A stretch of 64,000 nucleotides of DNA from Oscillospiraceae bacterium (GTDB lineage Bacteria; Bacillota; Clostridia; Oscillospirales; Oscillospiraceae). Below, one piece after another: positions 26,662 through 36,362 of the stretch. The notes below the pieces were generated by a model. It was given only the letters and a program-made list of their open reading frames with translations. It did no database searches and had not been told where the DNA came from. A program made the position numbers and the translations under genes. The stretch covers positions 62,001 to 126,000 of the forward strand of contig SVMG01000002.1 in assembly GCA_015067545.1 (NCBI GenBank), in the 5' to 3' direction. Every line of letters begins with the position of its first letter. Within the stretch, counting starts at the first letter, position 1.

Positions 26662-28857
26662 TTGGAAACCTTTGAATTCCATTATGGGCAGCTGCGCGAG
26701 ACCCTCGCCAAGCACCTGCCCGGCGCAGATATCGCCACCATTGACCGGGCGGTGGAATACGCCCAAAACAAACATAAGGAGCAAAAGCGCAAGGACGGAT
26801 CCCCCTACATCATCCACCCTCTGGCGGTGGCCAAGGTGGTTGCGGAAATGGGCCTGGATGTGGACGCGGTTCTGGGCGCTCTGCTCCACGACTGCATCGA
26901 AGACACCGACGCTTCCCACGAGGAGATCGAAAAGCTCTTCGGGCAGACTGTTGCAGAACTGGTGGAGGGCGTTACCAAGCTGACCCGTGCCAATTTCTCC
27001 AGCACCGAGCAAGCGCAGATGGAGAATCTGCGCAAAATGTTCATGGCCATGTCCAAGGATATCCGTGTGGTGCTGATCAAGATCGCCGACCGTCTTCACA
27101 ACATGCGCACCATGCAGTATCAAACTCCTGCCAAGCAGGTGCTAAAATGCCGGGAGACCATGGATATCTATGCGCCCCTGGCTCACCGCCTTGGTATGCA
27201 GAAGATCAAATGGGAGCTGGAGGATATTGCTCTGCGCTATTTGGAGCCGGAGGAATATGACGGCATCATGGCCTATCTGAATGCCCACAAGGAGCAGGAC
27301 GAGGCTTTCATGCACACCATTCAGGACACCATCACTCAGCGGCTCAACGCCATGGATATCCACCATACCGCCTACGGGCGCATCAAGCATGTGTATTCCA
27401 TTTACCGCAAGATGCGCGCTCAGGACAAGAGCCTGGATGAGCTGTACGATGTATACGCCTTCCGTGTCATCGTGGACACCATCCCCGACTGCTACAATGT
27501 GCTGGGTCACATCCACGACCTGTTTAACTTGGTGCCCGGCCGGTTTAAGGATTATATCTCCACTCCCAAGCCCAACATGTATCAATCCTTGCACACCACC
27601 GTCATCGGCAAGCAGGGCATTCCCTTTGAGGTGCAGATCCGCACCTGGGAAATGCACGAAGTGGCCGAATACGGTGTTGCCGCCCACTGGAAATACAAGC
27701 AGGGCACCGGCGCAGGCAATGAAAAGGACTTTGAATGGGTGCGCCGTCTGCTGGAAAGCCAGCAGGACACCGATGCGGAAGACTACCTGCAATCCCTGAA
27801 GATCGACATGTTCGACGACGAGGTATTCGTCTTCACCCCCAAAGGCCGGATCGTCTCCCTGCCCGCGGGCTCTACCCCCATTGACTTTGCCTATGCCATC
27901 CACTCCGGCGTGGGTAACTCCATGATCGGTGCAAAAATCAACAACCGGATCACCACCATCGATGCCACGCTGAAAAATGGCGACATCATCGAGGTGCTTA
28001 CCTCTAAAAATGCCAAGGGCCCCAGCCGTGACTGGCTGACCATCTGCAAGAGCAACCAGGCCCGCACCAAGATCAAGCAGTGGTTCAAGAAAGAAAAACG
28101 GGAAGAAAATGTGATGCATGGCCGCTCCTCCTTTGAAGCGGAAATGCGCCGCATGGGCCTGCCGCTGAATTTGACCATTGACCCGGAACTGGGTCCCCAG
28201 CTGCTGAAAAAGCTGGCCTTTGACAACTGGGAGGACATGTACGCCGCCATCGGCTACGGCGGTCTGACCGCAGTCAAGGCCGTAGGCCGCATCCGGGACG
28301 ACATCAACCGTGCGCTGAAGAATCAGCAGAACGACAAGCTGCTGCAGCCGGCAGCCCTGCGCAATATTTCGGACACCGAAGCCGGCAAAACAAACCGCCA
28401 TGCGGTCAACGGTATCATCGTGGAGGACATTGACTCCTGCATGATCAAGTTTGCCAAGTGCTGCACCCCCGTGCCCGGCGATGACATCATCGGCTTTATC
28501 ACCAAGGGCTTTGGCGTGTCCATCCACCGCACCGACTGTCCCAACACAGCACAGCGCCACGAACCCATTCAGGCTGCCCGTTGGGTGAATGTCCGCTGGG
28601 CCAATCAGGACGCCCAGCCCTTCGATACCACTCTGGAGCTGGAATGCCGTACCCGCGACGGTCTTTTGCTGGATGTTGCCACCACCATGACCACCAACCG
28701 GGTACGCACCAAGGAGCTCAACGGCAAGGATCTGCCCGGCGGCAAGAGTGTGTTCACCGTCCGCTTTGAGGTCAAGGATGTGGCAGAGCTGGAGACCATC
28801 CGCAACAAGCTGCTGGCCATCCCAGATGTGCTCAGCTCCAGAAGAGGACAGAACTGA
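26662..28857 (+). CDS. relA: Bifunctional (p)ppGpp synthetase/hydrolase (Rel)
   Basis: 731 residues from a TTG start. HD hydrolase domain (about 45-150, 'ALLHDCIEDTDASHEEI'), synthetase domain (about 230-340, 'DELYDVYAFRVIV' and 'YQSLHTTVIG'), TGS domain (about 390-450, 'FVFTPKGRIVSLPAGSTPIDFAYAIHS'), zinc-finger-like 'FAKCCTPVPGDDIIGF', and a C-terminal ACT domain. Makes and degrades the stringent-response alarmone at the ribosome. The HD motif is intact, so both activities are expected. Cotranscribed with recJ. Confidence 0.96.
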   Translation: METFEFHYGQLRETLAKHLPGADIATIDRAVEYAQNKHKEQKRKDGSPYIIHPLAVAKVVAEMGLDVDAVLGALLHDCIEDTDASHEEIEKLFGQTVAELVEGVTKLTRANFSSTEQAQMENLRKMFMAMSKDIRVVLIKIADRLHNMRTMQYQTPAKQVLKCRETMDIYAPLAHRLGMQKIKWELEDIALRYLEPEEYDGIMAYLNAHKEQDEAFMHTIQDTITQRLNAMDIHHTAYGRIKHVYSIYRKMRAQDKSLDELYDVYAFRVIVDTIPDCYNVLGHIHDLFNLVPGRFKDYISTPKPNMYQSLHTTVIGKQGIPFEVQIRTWEMHEVAEYGVAAHWKYKQGTGAGNEKDFEWVRRLLESQQDTDAEDYLQSLKIDMFDDEVFVFTPKGRIVSLPAGSTPIDFAYAIHSGVGNSMIGAKINNRITTIDATLKNGDIIEVLTSKNAKGPSRDWLTICKSNQARTKIKQWFKKEKREENVMHGRSSFEAEMRRMGLPLNLTIDPELGPQLLKKLAFDNWEDMYAAIGYGGLTAVKAVGRIRDDINRALKNQQNDKLLQPAALRNISDTEAGKTNRHAVNGIIVEDIDSCMIKFAKCCTPVPGDDIIGFITKGFGVSIHRTDCPNTAQRHEPIQAARWVNVRWANQDAQPFDTTLELECRTRDGLLLDVATTMTTNRVRTKELNGKDLPGGKSVFTVRFEVKDVAELETIRNKLLAIPDVLSSRRGQN

Positions 28858-29511: not shown

Positions 29512-30126
29512 ATGCTGAAGATCGTTACCTTGCCCTTGGGCGATTATCAGACAAACTGTTACATTCTTTTTGCCGAAGGCAGCACCACCTGTGCTGTTAT
29601 CGACCCGGGCTTTGCGCCGGAATTGGTGCTGGATCGGGTTGCGCAGTTGGGCCTTTGTGTGGAAGCCATCCTGCTGACCCACGGGCATTTTGACCATGTA
29701 GGTGCGGTAGAAGCCATTGTGCGTGCTACCGGCTGTAAGCTTTGGATGAGTGAAAGCGATTGGTCGCAATTTGCCAATCCCACCACCGCTTTCTTCTATC
29801 CCTTAGCCAACTGCGACTTCACTGAAGTCTGGTTCTGCGAGGAAGGCGAGATCATCCGCGCCGGCGGCCTGCGGTTTGACGTATTGGCCACACCGGGCCA
29901 TACCCACGGCTCTGTCTGCTACTGCTGCGAGGATGCCATATTCAGTGGCGACACCTTGTTTGCAGGCTCCTGCGGCCGCACTGACCTGCCCGGCGGCGAC
30001 TGTGAAACCATCCAGTCCTCCTTGAAGCGGCTGAGAGACTTGCCCGGCGATTACCGGGTATTTCCCGGCCACGGTGAGGGCACTACCTTGGCCCAGGAAA
30101 GGCAGTACAATCCCTATCTGAGGTAA
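29512..30126 (+). CDS. MBL-fold metallo-hydrolase (glyoxalase II-like)
   Basis: 204 residues. The zinc motif is 'LTHGHFDHVGAVEAI' (HxHxDH), with further ligands in 'TPGHTHGSVCY', 'FSGDTLFAGSCGRTDLPGG' and 'FPGHGEG'. Short YcbL-type members lack the long C-terminal substrate domain of true glyoxalase II, so the substrate is open (possibly a small thioester). 3 bases after dtd and 4 before hemZ. Confidence 0.85.
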   Translation: MLKIVTLPLGDYQTNCYILFAEGSTTCAVIDPGFAPELVLDRVAQLGLCVEAILLTHGHFDHVGAVEAIVRATGCKLWMSESDWSQFANPTTAFFYPLANCDFTEVWFCEEGEIIRAGGLRFDVLATPGHTHGSVCYCCEDAIFSGDTLFAGSCGRTDLPGGDCETIQSSLKRLRDLPGDYRVFPGHGEGTTLAQERQYNPYLR

Positions 30127-30130
30127 CACT

Positions 30131-31561
30131 ATGAAACTGACACTCATCGGTCATGAGGACCGATATGCTGTGGAGCAACTGCAAATGGCCCTGTTCTCCA
30201 CCAGCCAGGAGGGCGAAGCCGTTTCGTCACTGCACCGGGGCAAAACCTGGCTAACCGCCACTGCGAAGATCACCTTCGACGGCAAAACCGCCACCGCTTG
30301 TCGCCGGCTGAAAGCAAGTGAGGAGACCGTGCGCCTGCGCCGCCGGATCTTACAGCAGAGCTACTATCTGGCGGCGATCCAACTGCTGGAACAGCCCAGC
30401 GCGTGGGGCGCATTGGCCGGTGTCCGGCCCACAAAAATCTCTACCAAGCATCTTTTGGAGGGCGGCACGGCAAAATCGGCAGAGAAATTGCTGAAAGACG
30501 TGTATTATGTAACGCCGGATCGCCGAAAACTGGCTGTGGACTGCTCCATTTCCACAGTAGATGCCACCAAAAAGCTGGAAGACACCGACATTTCCCTGTA
30601 TGTGGGCATCCCCTTCTGCCCCACCCGGTGCAGTTATTGCAGCTTTGTCAGCCGCACCATCGGCAAGCAGACCGATCTCATGGAGCCCTATTTGGAGGCG
30701 CTGTTGCAGGAGATGGCGGTCACCGGCAAGCTTTTGGCAAATTCGGGACGCCATGTGCGTACCATTTACATAGGAGGCGGTACGCCCACCACTCTGACCA
30801 CGCCTCAAATGATCAGGCTCTTGGATGCCATCCGGGACTGCTTTGATCTTTCCCGGTGCATCGAATTCACCGTGGAGGGTGGACGCCCAGACACTCTGGA
30901 CGCAGAGAAGCTGCGTGCCATCCGGCAGCATGGGGCTGACCGCATGAGCATCAATCCCCAAACCATGGTGGACAGTGTCCTTGCTGCCTGCAAGCGCCCT
31001 CACACCGCTGACGATGTTCTGCGTGCCTACAAATGGGCGCAGGATGCCGGTTTTGAGGCCATCAACATGGACTTGATCGCAGGCCTGCCCACCGATGATT
31101 TTGACGGATTCCGGTACTCCTTGGATACCGTAGCCGCGCTGACCCCCGCCAATATCACTGTACATACTCTGGCGCTGAAAAAGGGCGCGGACCTGTTTGA
31201 AAACCGGGAATCCCTCTCCCACGCGGATCAGGTTGCCCGGATGGTGGACTACGCAAACGCGACCCTTCGCACCCTGGGCTACAAGCCCTACTACCTGTAC
31301 CGGCAGAAATATATGTCCGGCTCTTTCGAGAATGTGGGCTGGTCGAAAAATGGCCTTGACTGCCTTTATAACATCTACATGATGGAAGAAGTACACACCA
31401 TCCTCTCCCTGGGTGGCGGCGGCATGAATAAAGTCAATCTGCCGGATGGGTCACTTCAGCGATTCCACAACCCCAAGTTCCCGGAGCAGTACATTGAAAT
31501 GCTGAGCCAGGTGCTATATGACAAGAAGCAGCTTTTTGAACTGATGAAAGGAAGCCTTTGA
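30131..31561 (+). CDS. hemZ: Radical SAM coproporphyrinogen dehydrogenase-like protein HemZ
   Basis: 476 residues. An N-terminal region of about 150 residues precedes the radical SAM core 'VGIPFCPTRCSYCSFVS' (CxxxCxxC binds 4Fe-4S), then 'IYIGGGTPTTL' and 'EFTVEGGRPDT'. Length and N-extension match HemZ of Clostridia rather than classic HemN. Family role: oxygen-independent oxidation of coproporphyrinogen III, although many HemZ/HemN-like proteins do other heme or radical chemistry. No other heme-synthesis gene is in the window. The stop is directly followed by the amidohydrolase start. Confidence 0.85.
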   Translation: MKLTLIGHEDRYAVEQLQMALFSTSQEGEAVSSLHRGKTWLTATAKITFDGKTATACRRLKASEETVRLRRRILQQSYYLAAIQLLEQPSAWGALAGVRPTKISTKHLLEGGTAKSAEKLLKDVYYVTPDRRKLAVDCSISTVDATKKLEDTDISLYVGIPFCPTRCSYCSFVSRTIGKQTDLMEPYLEALLQEMAVTGKLLANSGRHVRTIYIGGGTPTTLTTPQMIRLLDAIRDCFDLSRCIEFTVEGGRPDTLDAEKLRAIRQHGADRMSINPQTMVDSVLAACKRPHTADDVLRAYKWAQDAGFEAINMDLIAGLPTDDFDGFRYSLDTVAALTPANITVHTLALKKGADLFENRESLSHADQVARMVDYANATLRTLGYKPYYLYRQKYMSGSFENVGWSKNGLDCLYNIYMMEEVHTILSLGGGGMNKVNLPDGSLQRFHNPKFPEQYIEMLSQVLYDKKQLFELMKGSL

Positions 31562-31562
31562 T

Positions 31563-32879
31563 TTGAATACCTTGATCTCCAATGTGACCATCGTCACCAT
31601 GAATGAGAAAATGGAAGTGCTCTTCGGCGCATACCTGGGCGTGGAAGAGGGTAAAATTTCCTACATAGGCAAATCCGCCCCGGAGGAAAAGCCTCAGACC
31701 ATCATCGATGGCACGGGCATGGTTTTGCTGCCCGGTCTGATCAACTGCCACACCCAGCTGGCTACCACGGTGCTGCGCAGTTATCTGGATGATCTGAGCA
31801 GTGCAGAAGCCCTGGACGAACAGCTGAAAAAAGAGGCGAAAATGGACGCCCGCAGCGCTAAGGCCGCTGCCCTTTTGGGTATTGCCGAGTGTTTGCGCTT
31901 TGGCGTCACTTCCGTTTCCGATCTTTACTACTATCCCGATGCCACCGCCGAAGCTATCGCAGAAAGCGGCATCAAGGGCAATGTCGCGCTTTCCGCTTAC
32001 CGCTTCATCGACCAGAATGAGGAGTTCGATTTCGACACCGATGAGCAATGCCGGGAGCTGGTGCGCATCACAGAAAAATGGCACGGCCATGACGGTGGCC
32101 GCATCAAGATCGATGCGGGCATCCACGCAGAATATACCAGTAACTACAAGCTGTGGGAGGGCCTTGTGGGCTTTGCCGCAGAGAAAAAGCTGGGCTTCCA
32201 GCTTCATTTGGCAGAAACCAAGGGCGAAACAGAGTCCTGCCTGGACAGAACCGGCCTTGGCCCGGCTGAGCTTCTGGGCTGCCACGGAATTTTCAATTTA
32301 CCGGTGACTGCCGTGGGCTGTGCAACGATTTCCGAAGAGGAGCAGAAGCTGCTGGGCAAAAAGAAGGCCACCGCTGTTGCCTGCCCCCTCACTGCCGCCA
32401 AAAAGGGACAGCCTGTCACTCCGGTTTTGGAGTGTGTCCGTGCCGGCATGAATGTGGCGTTGGGTACGGGCGGCGCGCTGGATGCGGGAAATCTTGACCT
32501 GTTTGAGGTCATGCGCGGTCTTGCCATGGCTGCCAGAAGCACCCGCGAAAACGCCTCCGCCCTGCCGGCCTCCGCTGCGCTGATGATGGCTACCTCCTGC
32601 GGTGCACGGGCACAGGGACGGGAAAACGAGTGTGGCATGATCAAGGTTGGCATGGATGCCGACCTGTGCCTGGTGGACTTCTCCGCACCCCACCTGATGC
32701 CCTGCCACAATGTGCCCAACGCTCTGGTATTCAGCGCCAAGGGCGGTGATGTGGCCATGACCATGGTCAAGGGCAAAATATTGTATCAGAACGGCCAGTT
32801 CCCCACCATTGATCTGAAAAATGTTGTGGAAGAGCTGACTTCTTACGCCATACCCCGTCTGTTTGCGGGTGAGAATTGA
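31563..32879 (+). CDS. Amidohydrolase-superfamily protein (MTA/SAH deaminase-like) lacking key metal residues
   Basis: 438 residues from a TTG start. The layout is that of 5-methylthioadenosine/S-adenosylhomocysteine deaminases: N-terminal beta piece ('GTGMVLLPGLINCHTQLA'), TIM barrel, 'LHLAETKGETE', and the C-terminal 'GRENECGMIKVGMDADLCLVD'. Several residues expected for the metal site differ. The N-terminal HxH reads 'HTQ'; the later His region reads 'AVGCATISEEE' where the family has a His; and the catalytic Asp region ('GTDG') reads 'GTGG'. Activity as a deaminase is therefore doubtful. It is kept intact inside a tight operon (hemZ before, a flippase gene after), so it may have a non-catalytic or changed role. 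Confidence 0.75.
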   Translation: MNTLISNVTIVTMNEKMEVLFGAYLGVEEGKISYIGKSAPEEKPQTIIDGTGMVLLPGLINCHTQLATTVLRSYLDDLSSAEALDEQLKKEAKMDARSAKAAALLGIAECLRFGVTSVSDLYYYPDATAEAIAESGIKGNVALSAYRFIDQNEEFDFDTDEQCRELVRITEKWHGHDGGRIKIDAGIHAEYTSNYKLWEGLVGFAAEKKLGFQLHLAETKGETESCLDRTGLGPAELLGCHGIFNLPVTAVGCATISEEEQKLLGKKKATAVACPLTAAKKGQPVTPVLECVRAGMNVALGTGGALDAGNLDLFEVMRGLAMAARSTRENASALPASAALMMATSCGARAQGRENECGMIKVGMDADLCLVDFSAPHLMPCHNVPNALVFSAKGGDVAMTMVKGKILYQNGQFPTIDLKNVVEELTSYAIPRLFAGEN

Positions 32880-32889
32880 GGAAATTACC

Positions 32890-34488
32890 ATGTCTGAAAC
32901 ACCGAAAAAACAATCCTTCCTCCACGGCACAGCGCTCCTTGCCATGGCCACTGCCGTAGTAAAAGTGATCGGTGCACTGTATAAGATCCCGCTGAACGCC
33001 ATCATCGGCGAGCAGGGCTTCGGCTATTACAGCACCGCCTATGAAATTTACACTGTGCTTCTTATGATCTCCACTGCCGGTCTGCCGGTGGCTATGAGCC
33101 GGATGATTGCTCAGGCCAGTTCTCTGAGCCATTACCGCCAGGTGCGCAAGGTCTATACCGTCTGCCGCACCATTTTTCTCACCCTGGGCCTTGTGGGCGC
33201 ACTGCTGATGACGCTCTTCTGCCGTCAGCTGGCCCAATTCCAGCAGCAGCCGGATGCATGGGCGGCCATTGGTGCCCTTGGCCCCTGCTGCTTCCTGATC
33301 TGCTTGATGAGTACGTACCGGGGCTTCTTCCAGGGACAGGGTAATATGCTCCCCACTTCCGTTTCCCAGGTCATCGAGGCCATCACCAAGCTGGTGGTAG
33401 GCATTGCCGGTGCGCTCTTGGTGGTCTACTACTCCCAAAGTGTCTCCCTGGCTGCAGGCGCAGCCATCATGGGCGTGACCGTCAGCTGTCTGGTGTCCTC
33501 CTTCTATCTCAATCACTGCTTCCGCAAGGCGTATAAGCAGATGCCTCAGTCCTGCGAGGAGGTCTCCTCCGGCAAGGACATTGCCAAGGGACTGCTGTCC
33601 ATCGCCATTCCCATTACCATCGGCTCTGCCGGACTGCAGCTGCTGACCGTCCTGGAGACCAAGATCTACATGACCCAGCTGCTGAAGACTCTGACTCAGG
33701 ATGTGGCCGACACCCAAAAGGGTATTTACAGCATGGCGCTGACCATTTTCAATATGCCCTGCGCTTTTATCACACCCATCACCATTTCCATCATCCCGGC
33801 CATCACCTCCCAGCTGACTCTGGGTAATACAAAAGCCGCCAAGGCCACAGAGGAATCCTCCGCCCGGATCAGCGCACTGATCTCCATGCCCTGTGCATTC
33901 GGTCTTGCGCTCCTTGCCCAGCCGGTGACCCAGCTGCTGGGCGGATACAGCGGTGAAAAGCTGGCCTTAGCCACGCGGCTCATGTCCGTGCTGGGCGTGT
34001 GCATCATATTTAATTCCACGGTGCTGTTGACCACCGCCATCATGCAGGCCCACGGCCACGAAAAGCTGCCGGTGGTAAATATGTTCATCGGTGGCTTTGT
34101 GAAGCTGGCCACAGTATTCATCCTCACGGGCAATCCCAACATCGGCATCGTGGGCACACCCATCGGAAGCCTGCTGTGCTATCTTTGCATCACCGTTCTG
34201 AACCTGTTTACCATGCGTCGGGTGCTGACCGATCCTCCCGCCATCGTCAAGCATATGCTTCGCGCACTTCTGGCCGCAGCTCTGATGGGAGCCTGCGCCT
34301 GGGGCACCTGGAAGGGGCTTCAAATGCTGCTGGGAAATGACCTCAGCCGGCTCATCAGCTGTGCCGTTCCCATTGCGGTAGGCGTGGTCGTATATGTATT
34401 TTGTGCCGTAAAGTTCCGCGCAATCACCCGGGAGGACTGTTTATTGCTTCCTAAGGGCGAAAAAATTGCAAATTTGTTGCATTTGTGA
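32890..34488 (+). CDS. Polysaccharide/lipid flippase, SpoVB-like (MOP superfamily)
   Basis: 532 residues from ATG 32890 (GAGG 8 bases upstream; the track start at 32863 lies inside the preceding gene). About 14 membrane segments; start 'SFLHGTALLAMATAVVKVIGALYKIPLNAIIGEQGFGYY' is typical of stage V sporulation protein B and its paralogues, which flip lipid-linked precursors, in spore formers for cortex peptidoglycan. The paralogue group cannot be fixed by eye, so no symbol is given. Confidence 0.82.
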   Translation: MSETPKKQSFLHGTALLAMATAVVKVIGALYKIPLNAIIGEQGFGYYSTAYEIYTVLLMISTAGLPVAMSRMIAQASSLSHYRQVRKVYTVCRTIFLTLGLVGALLMTLFCRQLAQFQQQPDAWAAIGALGPCCFLICLMSTYRGFFQGQGNMLPTSVSQVIEAITKLVVGIAGALLVVYYSQSVSLAAGAAIMGVTVSCLVSSFYLNHCFRKAYKQMPQSCEEVSSGKDIAKGLLSIAIPITIGSAGLQLLTVLETKIYMTQLLKTLTQDVADTQKGIYSMALTIFNMPCAFITPITISIIPAITSQLTLGNTKAAKATEESSARISALISMPCAFGLALLAQPVTQLLGGYSGEKLALATRLMSVLGVCIIFNSTVLLTTAIMQAHGHEKLPVVNMFIGGFVKLATVFILTGNPNIGIVGTPIGSLLCYLCITVLNLFTMRRVLTDPPAIVKHMLRALLAAALMGACAWGTWKGLQMLLGNDLSRLISCAVPIAVGVVVYVFCAVKFRAITREDCLLLPKGEKIANLLHL

Positions 34489-34565: not shown

Positions 34566-34841
34566 ATGAATAAAACCGAACTCATCGCTGCTACCGCCGA
34601 AAAGGCCGGTCTCAGCAAGAAGGATGCCGAGCGTGCTCTGAACGCTGCCATCGACGCCGTCACCGCTTCCCTGGTCGCAGGTGAAAAGGTGCAGATCTCC
34701 GGCTTTGGCATCTTCGAAACCAAGAACCGTGAAGCCCGTACCGGCCGCAACCCCCACACCAAGCAGACCATTCAGATCCCCGCTACCCGCGTTCCCGCAT
34801 TCAAGGCCAGCAAGAGCCTGAAGGACGCTGTGGCAAAGTAA
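34566..34841 (+). CDS. hup: HU family DNA-binding protein
   Basis: 91 residues, 'MNKTELIAATAEKAGLSKKDAERALNAAIDAV' and 'GFGIFETKNREARTGRNPHTKQTIQIPATRVPAFKASKSLKDAV', a textbook HU with the DNA-embracing arm intact. Nucleoid protein. AGAGG lies before ATG. A promoter probably lies at 34499-34525 (TTGCAT ... GATAAT, spacing imperfect). The RqcP gene starts 1 base after its stop. Confidence 0.96.
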   Translation: MNKTELIAATAEKAGLSKKDAERALNAAIDAVTASLVAGEKVQISGFGIFETKNREARTGRNPHTKQTIQIPATRVPAFKASKSLKDAVAK

Positions 34842-35082: not shown

Positions 35083-35117
35083 AAAAATGAGGGAAGCTTT
35101 CGCTTCCCTCATTTTTT
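35081..35117. terminator. Bidirectional terminator between rqcP and the ECF gene
   Basis: GAGGGAAGC/GCTTCCCTC stem with 4-base loop, flanked by AAAAAAAT and ATTTTTT; it serves both convergent genes. Confidence 0.88.
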
Positions 35118-35634
35118 AGAAATTGACCTTTTTAATAACCCTCGTCAGGGGATGGAACAGCAGCATCACCGTCACAGCGGTACAGATCATTTGGGGAATC
35201 ATCGCCGTCAGCGACTGGTAAAAATAGGCCCTCGTGGCGTTCTCGTTAAAGCCATAAATAAGCGGTGTAATCACATCGTCCAACAATGTAAACATAGCGG
35301 TAAACACCACGGCGGATGCAACAACCATGACCGTTTTCAGCAGCGCATTTTTCCCAGTAAAACGCGCGCCCAGCCAGCCAAAGAAAAGCGCAAACAGGTT
35401 GTAGTACACCAGATACAGCACGATCACATTGATCTGAAAACCAAACACAAAGCACCGCAGCAGCGAAAAAGTGGTGGCAGTGGCGATACCGTGGCGGATG
35501 CCATAGCAATCGCAAAAGCACAGCAGCATCACCGTTATGATCTCAATGCCGGTCACACTGCTCAGCGCCAGCTGTCCGGCAATGAGCAGTGCCACGCACA
35601 TGGCCACGCGGACGACAAATTTTGTCTTGTTCAT
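35116..35634 (-). CDS. ECF transporter S component, probably for cobalamin or a corrinoid precursor
   Basis: 172 residues, very hydrophobic, five to six membrane segments, start 'MNKTKFVVRVAMCVALLIAGQLALSSVTGIEIITVMLL', a common S-component pattern. Such proteins bind a vitamin in the membrane and share the EcfAA'T energising module, which is not in this window. The gene is coupled to the DUF4430 lipoprotein gene (start at that gene's stop) and the unit sits behind a cobalamin riboswitch, so a B12-type substrate is inferred from context. Confidence 0.78.
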   Translation of the reverse strand: MNKTKFVVRVAMCVALLIAGQLALSSVTGIEIITVMLLCFCDCYGIRHGIATATTFSLLRCFVFGFQINVIVLYLVYYNLFALFFGWLGARFTGKNALLKTVMVVASAVVFTAMFTLLDDVITPLIYGFNENATRAYFYQSLTAMIPQMICTAVTVMLLFHPLTRVIKKVNF

Positions 35635-36056
35635 TAGCTAAAAGACTTAAATACCCAAATATACAGCTGATCCGGCTTGACCTTCAGCACTTCCGCACCG
35701 GAAATGGCAGAGCCGTACTCTTTCCCCTCGTACTCCACTGTACCCCAGGACGCATTGGCATTGTCGGCGTCGCTGGTATAGAGCATCCAGCAGCTGCTGT
35801 AATCGGTAGGATTGTCAATGCCGTTGATGGATGTGATCATACCGTCGCTGATGGTAAATTCCAGGTCACCCTTCTCCTTCAGCTTGGTCATATAGTCCAT
35901 CAGGGTCATGTCGGCTGTTTCCTGGCCGGTGGTCTTGACCACGATGTAGGTGTCAGAATCCTTGATCACCAGTTTTTCCTCCTGGCAGGCGGACAATCCG
36001 GCAAGGATCACCAACACCAGCAGAACGGACAGCGCTTTTTTCATTTTGTTTTTCAT
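35634..36056 (-). CDS. DUF4430 lipoprotein, candidate corrinoid-binding protein
   Basis: 140 residues from ATG 36056 (AGGAGG upstream; the track's 36281 start lies in the riboswitch). Lipoprotein signal with lipobox 'LAGLSAC'. The rest matches the DUF4430 fold, related to the C-terminal domain of transcobalamin: 'MTLMDYMTKLKEKGDLEFTISDGMITSINGIDNPTDYSSCWMLYTSD' and 'WVFKSF'. Anchored outside the membrane, it probably hands a corrinoid to the ECF S component encoded next. Regulated by the upstream cobalamin riboswitch and terminator. Confidence 0.82.
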   Translation of the reverse strand: MKNKMKKALSVLLVLVILAGLSACQEEKLVIKDSDTYIVVKTTGQETADMTLMDYMTKLKEKGDLEFTISDGMITSINGIDNPTDYSSCWMLYTSDADNANASWGTVEYEGKEYGSAISGAEVLKVKPDQLYIWVFKSFS

Positions 36057-36081
36057 AATTTTTTCCTCCTGAAAAATGATA

Positions 36082-36112
36082 CGGCTGCGGCGTCGATTTG
36101 ACGCCGCAGCCG
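36082..36112 (-). terminator. Riboswitch expression-platform hairpin
   Basis: Perfect 13-bp stem CGGCTGCGGCGTC/GACGCCGCAGCCG with 5-base loop, followed on the minus strand by TATCATTTTTC, between the aptamer and the DUF4430 ribosome site. Confidence 0.75.
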
Positions 36113-36165
36113 TTTTTCTGCGACAAACGCACATCCTCGTAATCACGCGAAGATGGGGAGATCCA

Positions 36166-36362
36166 TTCCGTAGGTCTTCTGACTCGTGGCTCTTGGATTC
36201 TGGGAGGATCCGCAGCATCCTCTGCCTTCCCGGAAATATTCCAGTGACTGGCTTTCGCCAAAAGAAGATGCCATACCACATACAGCGGCGGTACCGTTCG
36301 GGATTTTCACCCGATTATCTTGTTCAGCAGCCAAGGTTCATCGCCCCGGCCGCCACGGAACT
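36166..36362 (-). promoter_or_regulatory. Cobalamin riboswitch
   Basis: On the minus strand the conserved elements appear in order: 'GGGTGAAAATCCCGAACGGT', 'CCGCCGCTGT', 'AGCCAGTCACTGG', 'GAAGGC', and the 3' 'GAGTCAGAAGACCTACGG' of the B12 box region. The aptamer spans about 195 bases and is followed by a terminator hairpin and the DUF4430-ECF genes. Adenosyl- or methylcobalamin is expected to switch the unit off. Confidence 0.9.

Follow-up and report, generated by a model that had tools for sequence, protein, structure and literature searches.

In the amidohydrolase superfamily, a single metal is coordinated by the HxH motif, the His of strand beta-5 and the Asp of strand beta-8, whereas the hydrolytic water and the amino group that leaves are attended to by the beta-6 His and a Glu. 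Catalysis can be lost in proteins of this fold, as in the collapsin response mediator proteins of animals, which are dihydropyrimidinase-like, non-catalytic and devoid of the metal ligands. The pseudo-dihydroorotase (pDHO/PyrX) of Pseudomonas is also inactive, yet ATCase activity depends on its presence (PMC7053772). The active enzymes of the deaminase subgroup include those that convert SAH into S-inosylhomocysteine, which is then handled by a SAH-hydrolase homologue; this route operates in Methanocaldococcus and is indicated for Thermotoga, and the archaea that use it are devoid of the MTA/SAH nucleosidase, MTAN (PMC10978960).

The window analysed here, a stretch of 64,000 nucleotides from an Oscillospiraceae bacterium, encodes a protein of the MTA/SAH deaminase subgroup that resembles pDHO in being an amidohydrolase-superfamily barrel that has apparently lost catalysis and has nevertheless been kept. 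The two cases differ in that pDHO belongs to the dihydroorotase subgroup and its partner is known, whereas the protein of the window's genus belongs to the deaminase subgroup and its loss of function would follow the replacement of a pathway. A pDHO-type scaffold for ATCase was considered and rejected, as the closest relatives are MTA/SAH deaminases and the neighbouring genes are hemZ and spoVB, not pyrB. The collapsin response mediator proteins are of yet another subgroup, and the genus protein is likened to them by description only. A literature search of incomplete coverage for amidohydrolase pseudoenzymes of the SAH/MTA deaminase subgroup returned nothing relevant. One might tentatively propose, as a possibility that we find rather doubtful, that this is a first pseudoenzyme family from the SAH/5′-deoxyadenosine deaminase subgroup, produced by a traceable replacement of a pathway, and that, in a genus of gut bacteria with at least 136 species, it is now an obligatory protein partner for one of its neighbours in the row relA-dtd-hemZ-spoVB (e.g. 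HemZ or the SpoVB-type flippase).

Gene neighbourhood and protein fold

The preliminary description had reported a full-length ORF between hemZ and a flippase gene, and the gene was found at exactly those coordinates (Table 1). Its TTG start codon lies one base past the hemZ stop codon and the spoVB-type gene abuts or overlaps its end. This arrangement is conserved, with hemZ directly upstream at 93/93 genus loci for which enough upstream sequence was available, and spoVB as the downstream neighbour at 100/100 genus loci and in most relatives of the family and the order. A purine-rich site like GAAAGGAAG precedes the gene in 98 of the 100 genus orthologues. When orthologue start codons were assigned by the nearest fit to the alignment, TTG was found in 77/100 genus orthologues compared with 4/54 homologues from outside the genus, a clade-wide move to a weak start that may lower the expression, and hence the dose, of the pseudo-deaminase. 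Another gene of the row, encoding an MBL-fold (GloB-like) protein (29512-30126), evolves much faster than its neighbours, its identity to the window being 46-63% in genus loci compared with 71-93% for dtd and 59-88% for hemZ. At 35116-36281, two adjoining ORFs on the minus strand encode an ECF transporter S component-like membrane protein and a secreted-looking protein; a Pfam search of these two ORFs gave no match.

Table 1. Positions, within the window, of the pseudo-deaminase gene, its main neighbours and the codons of its active-site residues
Feature	Position	Strand	Remarks
relA/spoT	26662..28857	+	opens the conserved gene row
hemZ	30131..31561	+	radical SAM, TIGR03994
Ribosome-binding-site-like GAAAGGAAG	31546..31554	+	8 nt upstream of the TTG start
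Pseudo-deaminase gene (amidohydrolase superfamily, MTA/SAH deaminase subgroup)	31563..32879	+	438 aa, TTG start
H63, first His of HxH	31749..31751	+	kept in 100/100 genus orthologues
Q65, replacing the second HxH His (HTH to HTQ)	31755..31757	+	changed in 17/100 genus orthologues
H188, aligned to the His of TM0936 'GPHSPY', substrate side	32124..32126	+	kept in the window protein
H215, beta-5 His of HLxET	32205..32207	+	kept in 97/100 genus orthologues
E218, Glu of HLxET, proton shuttle in active enzymes	32214..32216	+	kept in the window protein
G252, replacing the beta-6 His (TM0936 'AAHC')	32316..32318	+	His in 0/100 genus, 70/70 outside
G303, replacing the beta-8 Asp ('LGTDGA'; GTDG to GTGG)	32469..32471	+	Asp lost in 75/100 genus orthologues
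spoVB/MurJ-type flippase gene	32863..34488	+	more likely to start with the ATG at 32890
HU-type DNA-binding protein	34566..34841	+	closes the conserved gene row

The window protein belongs to the amidohydrolase superfamily by descent and by fold. It matches PF01979 over its full length with 136.9 bits (cut-off 25), and its nearest solved relatives, in a full-length sequence match, are MTA/SAH deaminases. The deaminase models of NCBIfam recognise it with high significance, yet far under their equivalog cut-offs (283.5 bits versus 609 for PRK06038, the best of them, and 235.7 versus 522 for PRK07228). An AlphaFold model for which 67 homologues were aligned (mean pLDDT 96.5, pTM 0.94) consists of a barrel and a small beta-sandwich, and the best PDB matches in Foldseek were 4f0r, 4f0s and 4dyk, all from the MTA/SAH deaminase group, with TM 0.93. 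The quality of the model together with these matches indicates, therefore, that the fold is complete. It is common to the MTA/SAH and 5′-deoxyadenosine deaminases (TM0936, 1p1m/2plm; CV, 4f0r/4f0s; PA, 4dyk/4gbd; MjDadD).

Loss of catalytic residues within the genus

The active site was mapped by alignment with TM0936 and the Pseudomonas enzymes. Among the features of an active deaminase, the window protein retains the beta-5 His and the Glu; HxH is without its second His, neither the beta-6 His nor the beta-8 Asp is present, and residues on the substrate side are replaced. The preliminary description had pointed to three changes, namely HxH to HTQ, a lost later His and GTDG to GTGG, and had predicted from them the loss of MTA/SAH deaminase activity. 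The three changes are real on the alignment to MTA/SAH deaminases and the predicted loss of activity is supported by the disappearance of catalytic residues across the clade, with the correction that the changes differ in age and that only the loss of the beta-6 His is genus-wide. A shifted alignment that would restore the metal residues was looked for and rejected, since 70 homologues from outside the genus align at the same columns and keep all six catalytic residues there. Errors of assembly or sequencing were also discarded, because independent assemblies with 80-89% identity share both HTQ and the loss of the beta-6 His.

Orthologues were collected at three levels, namely the window's genus, the rest of its family and further families of the same order, and 100 distinct genus orthologues were compared with 54 outside homologues, to which 16 were added later. 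No genus orthologue keeps the beta-6 His, the position being occupied by Gly in 86 of them and by Ser, Asp, Asn, Cys or Thr in the remainder. HTH is preserved in 83/100 genus orthologues and Glu218 has been lost in 38, being replaced by Gln in 35. The beta-5 His215 is lost in three orthologues, L126, L161 and L003 (Asn, Asn and Pro, respectively), whose active sites are more eroded than any others in the comparison. In sister genera, the same locus is occupied by positional orthologues with intact sites. The nearest of them, from another genus of the family that is represented by one genome only (L084/L114), is 53% identical, has all the residues intact and lies in a row relA-dtd-MBL-hemZ-X-spoVB-HU, as in the genus.

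To place these losses on a tree, the eight active-site columns were left out of its computation and the states were scored as kept or lost. The genus formed one clade (SH-aLRT 98), and the changes needed were one for the beta-6 His, 12 for D303, 23 for E218, five for H65 and two for H215. These counts thus point to a stepwise decay in which the beta-6 His was lost first, and only once, and the other residues later and repeatedly. HTQ in the window protein is a young state confined to one subclade. The preliminary description had reasoned that metal residues kept by close relatives would indicate a recent decay. HTH is common among close relatives and the Asp survives in some of them, which fits that expectation for two of the three changes, but none keeps the decisive beta-6 His, and for this residue a recent decay in one species was rejected. 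The distribution of residues is thus best described as that of a clade-wide pseudoenzyme rather than of a recent decay. As the sister genus has an intact orthologue in this locus, and a single founding loss was followed by graded and repeated ones in a genus of 136 species, it offers an unusually clean record of the passage from enzyme to pseudoenzyme.

Gene content around the SAH pathway

The genes that accompany the deaminase differ between the genus and its relatives. At 32 outside loci, the sequence flanking the deaminase upstream contains a gene for an inosine/guanosine-specific phosphorylase (TIGR01700), nearly always directly adjacent to the deaminase; this is so at 0/100 genus loci. 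Pathway gene content was scored in 47 well-assembled genomes, 22 from the genus and 25 others. MTAN exceeded the cut-off in 21/22 genus genomes versus 7/25 of the others, and the same numbers were obtained for LuxS, whereas SAH hydrolase was present in 0/22 versus 16/25. The luxS and pfs genes adjoin on contig 14 of the window's genome, and the single genome of the nearest sister genus carries SAH hydrolase but has no MTAN and no LuxS. The sole genus genome of the 22 without luxS and pfs (G036) probably has an assembly gap, because its close relatives carry both genes. In another genus of the family (G246 contig 1, 66832-69335; L214 and L110), SAH hydrolase is encoded directly downstream of the intact deaminase homologue, an organisation that supports the S-inosylhomocysteine route. 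Across 244 genomes of the order, 18 contained both the deaminase and MTAN, 120 the deaminase only, 86 MTAN only and 20 neither, an avoidance with an odds ratio of 0.035 whose p-value is not to be taken as a probability, because the count takes no account of shared ancestry and depends on the cuts used, which were E 1e-25 in the case of MTAN and about 1e-55 in that of the deaminase.

Combined with the published deaminase route, this gene content can therefore be read as the replacement of the deamination route by Pfs/LuxS, which would be a plausible cause for the origin of the pseudoenzyme. The gain of Pfs alone is not the cause of the decay, because at least 18 genomes outside the genus combine MTAN with a deaminase homologue; the residues were intact in all those that were read, no independent decay of the active site was found among the MTAN-positive relatives read, and the presence of MTAN as a sufficient cause was rejected. 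The history that we consider probable is one of descent in place from a deaminase, followed by the exchange of the route for Pfs/LuxS, a stepwise decay and the maintenance of the fold for a non-catalytic role. The ancestor in the same locus would have been an active SAH, 5′-deoxyadenosine or MTA deaminase, whose deaminated product would have been converted into hypoxanthine by SAH (S-inosylhomocysteine) hydrolase followed by an inosine-specific phosphorylase. The ancestor of the genus would then have adopted the Pfs and LuxS route, with SAH hydrolase and the operon-linked phosphorylase absent, and we infer that this change of route preceded the decay and freed the deaminase from catalytic selection. 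The beta-6 His would have been lost once, and the beta-8 Asp, the Glu of HLxET and the second His of HxH would have been eroded repeatedly afterwards. The annotation of these genes also calls for correction, as they would receive an amidohydrolase or deaminase label though the genus has another route for SAH.

Retention, constraint and possible roles

The product of the gene is a working protein and not a remnant. A copy was found in 125/136 genus genomes, one of these copies being a weak match only, and in 39 of the 40 high-quality genus genomes (completeness of 90% or more, contamination of 5% or less). Twelve genomes were without a clear copy, but nine of them were also without spoVB and three had spoVB at a contig edge, so the missing copies are explained by assembly gaps and a true absence in some members of the genus was rejected. 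The median dN/dS was 0.112 (range 0.037-0.175 in 73 close pairs) and the length of the protein varied only from 434 to 448 aa in 100 genus genes. The retention of the protein noted in the preliminary description is thereby extended to the genus, and the loss of catalytic residues across the clade coincides with purifying selection on the protein, as expected for a pseudoenzyme. Since nearly all the species keep an intact protein in the same row, it must therefore perform a job that is independent of deaminase chemistry.

The preliminary description had proposed that this job may be regulatory or newly catalytic. A new enzyme, in which H63 and H215 would cooperate with newly fixed residues to catalyse another reaction in the barrel, most species having a metal, could account for the conservation of HTH and of the first and beta-5 His, and for the residues that are fixed specifically in the genus, which include R112, D160, C163, N194 and H241. 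The invariant H63 and the near-invariant H215 hint at a structural or metal role that most species have kept, and they are the chief argument against a role carried elsewhere in the protein. We nevertheless hold a new enzyme to be unlikely, as the columns of the old pocket (277, 278, 281, 283, 284, 188 and 218) are among the more or most variable, in the window species Gln stands in for the second HxH His and Gly for the beta-8 Asp, and L003, L126 and L161 lack the beta-5 His too; these losses differ between species and a new catalytic site common to the genus should be shared. The variability of the pocket and of the residues on the substrate side argues against a shared new reaction and, in addition, against a kept nucleoside site. 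This weighs on a more improbable alternative, a sensor or buffer that would bind SAH, MTA or 5′-deoxyadenosine without turnover and regulate HemZ or methyl metabolism. The intact fold and barrel of the model would be compatible with it, as would the neighbouring HemZ, a radical SAM enzyme with 5′-deoxyadenosine as its expected by-product, but W83, present in 54/54 outside homologues, is Ala in 91/100 genus orthologues, R143, present in 35/54, is Leu in 96/100, the equivalent of H188 has changed in 75/100 (to Tyr, Phe, Trp or other residues) and the loop 277-284 is scrambled.

A decay still in progress, in which a dispensable remnant would be kept just because spoVB translation needs its intact reading frame, could be suggested by the gradual loss of the catalytic residues and by the lower expression that the TTG start may imply. 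It is very improbable given the low dN/dS, the uniform lengths, a constraint similar to that of hemZ and a C-terminal part that is nearly frozen. Least credible of all is a deaminase that remains active and tolerates the losses thanks to a different metal site: the window protein keeps the whole fold, H63, H215 and E218, but not one of the 70 outside homologues departs from the beta-6 His or the beta-8 Asp, and the genus possesses a complete Pfs/LuxS route.

A non-catalytic role remains the preferred reading, and our best guess at present is a structural or regulatory one, as a scaffold or regulatory subunit. Purifying selection would hold the fold most likely for protein binding or scaffolding via residues 101-122 and 341-420, and HemZ and SpoVB are candidate partners by adjacency only. 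Mean amino acid identity to the window was 71% for the pseudo-deaminase, 73% for hemZ and 64% for spoVB, and the three identities correlate about equally (0.66-0.75), a result that names no partner because shared ancestry alone would produce such a correlation. Outside the genus, no columns of the protein are better conserved than those of the active site, and within the genus those same columns are among the most variable, column entropy placing position 281 at the 96th percentile and position 284 at the 98th. Such variability of the old pocket would favour a role that resides elsewhere in the fold. Mean column entropy in the genus was 1.82 in the loop 274-290, 0.61 in residues 335-422 and 0.52 in residues 96-122, and the near-frozen segments (101-122 and 341-420) are distant from the old active site, so that the search for a partner can be put directly to the test.
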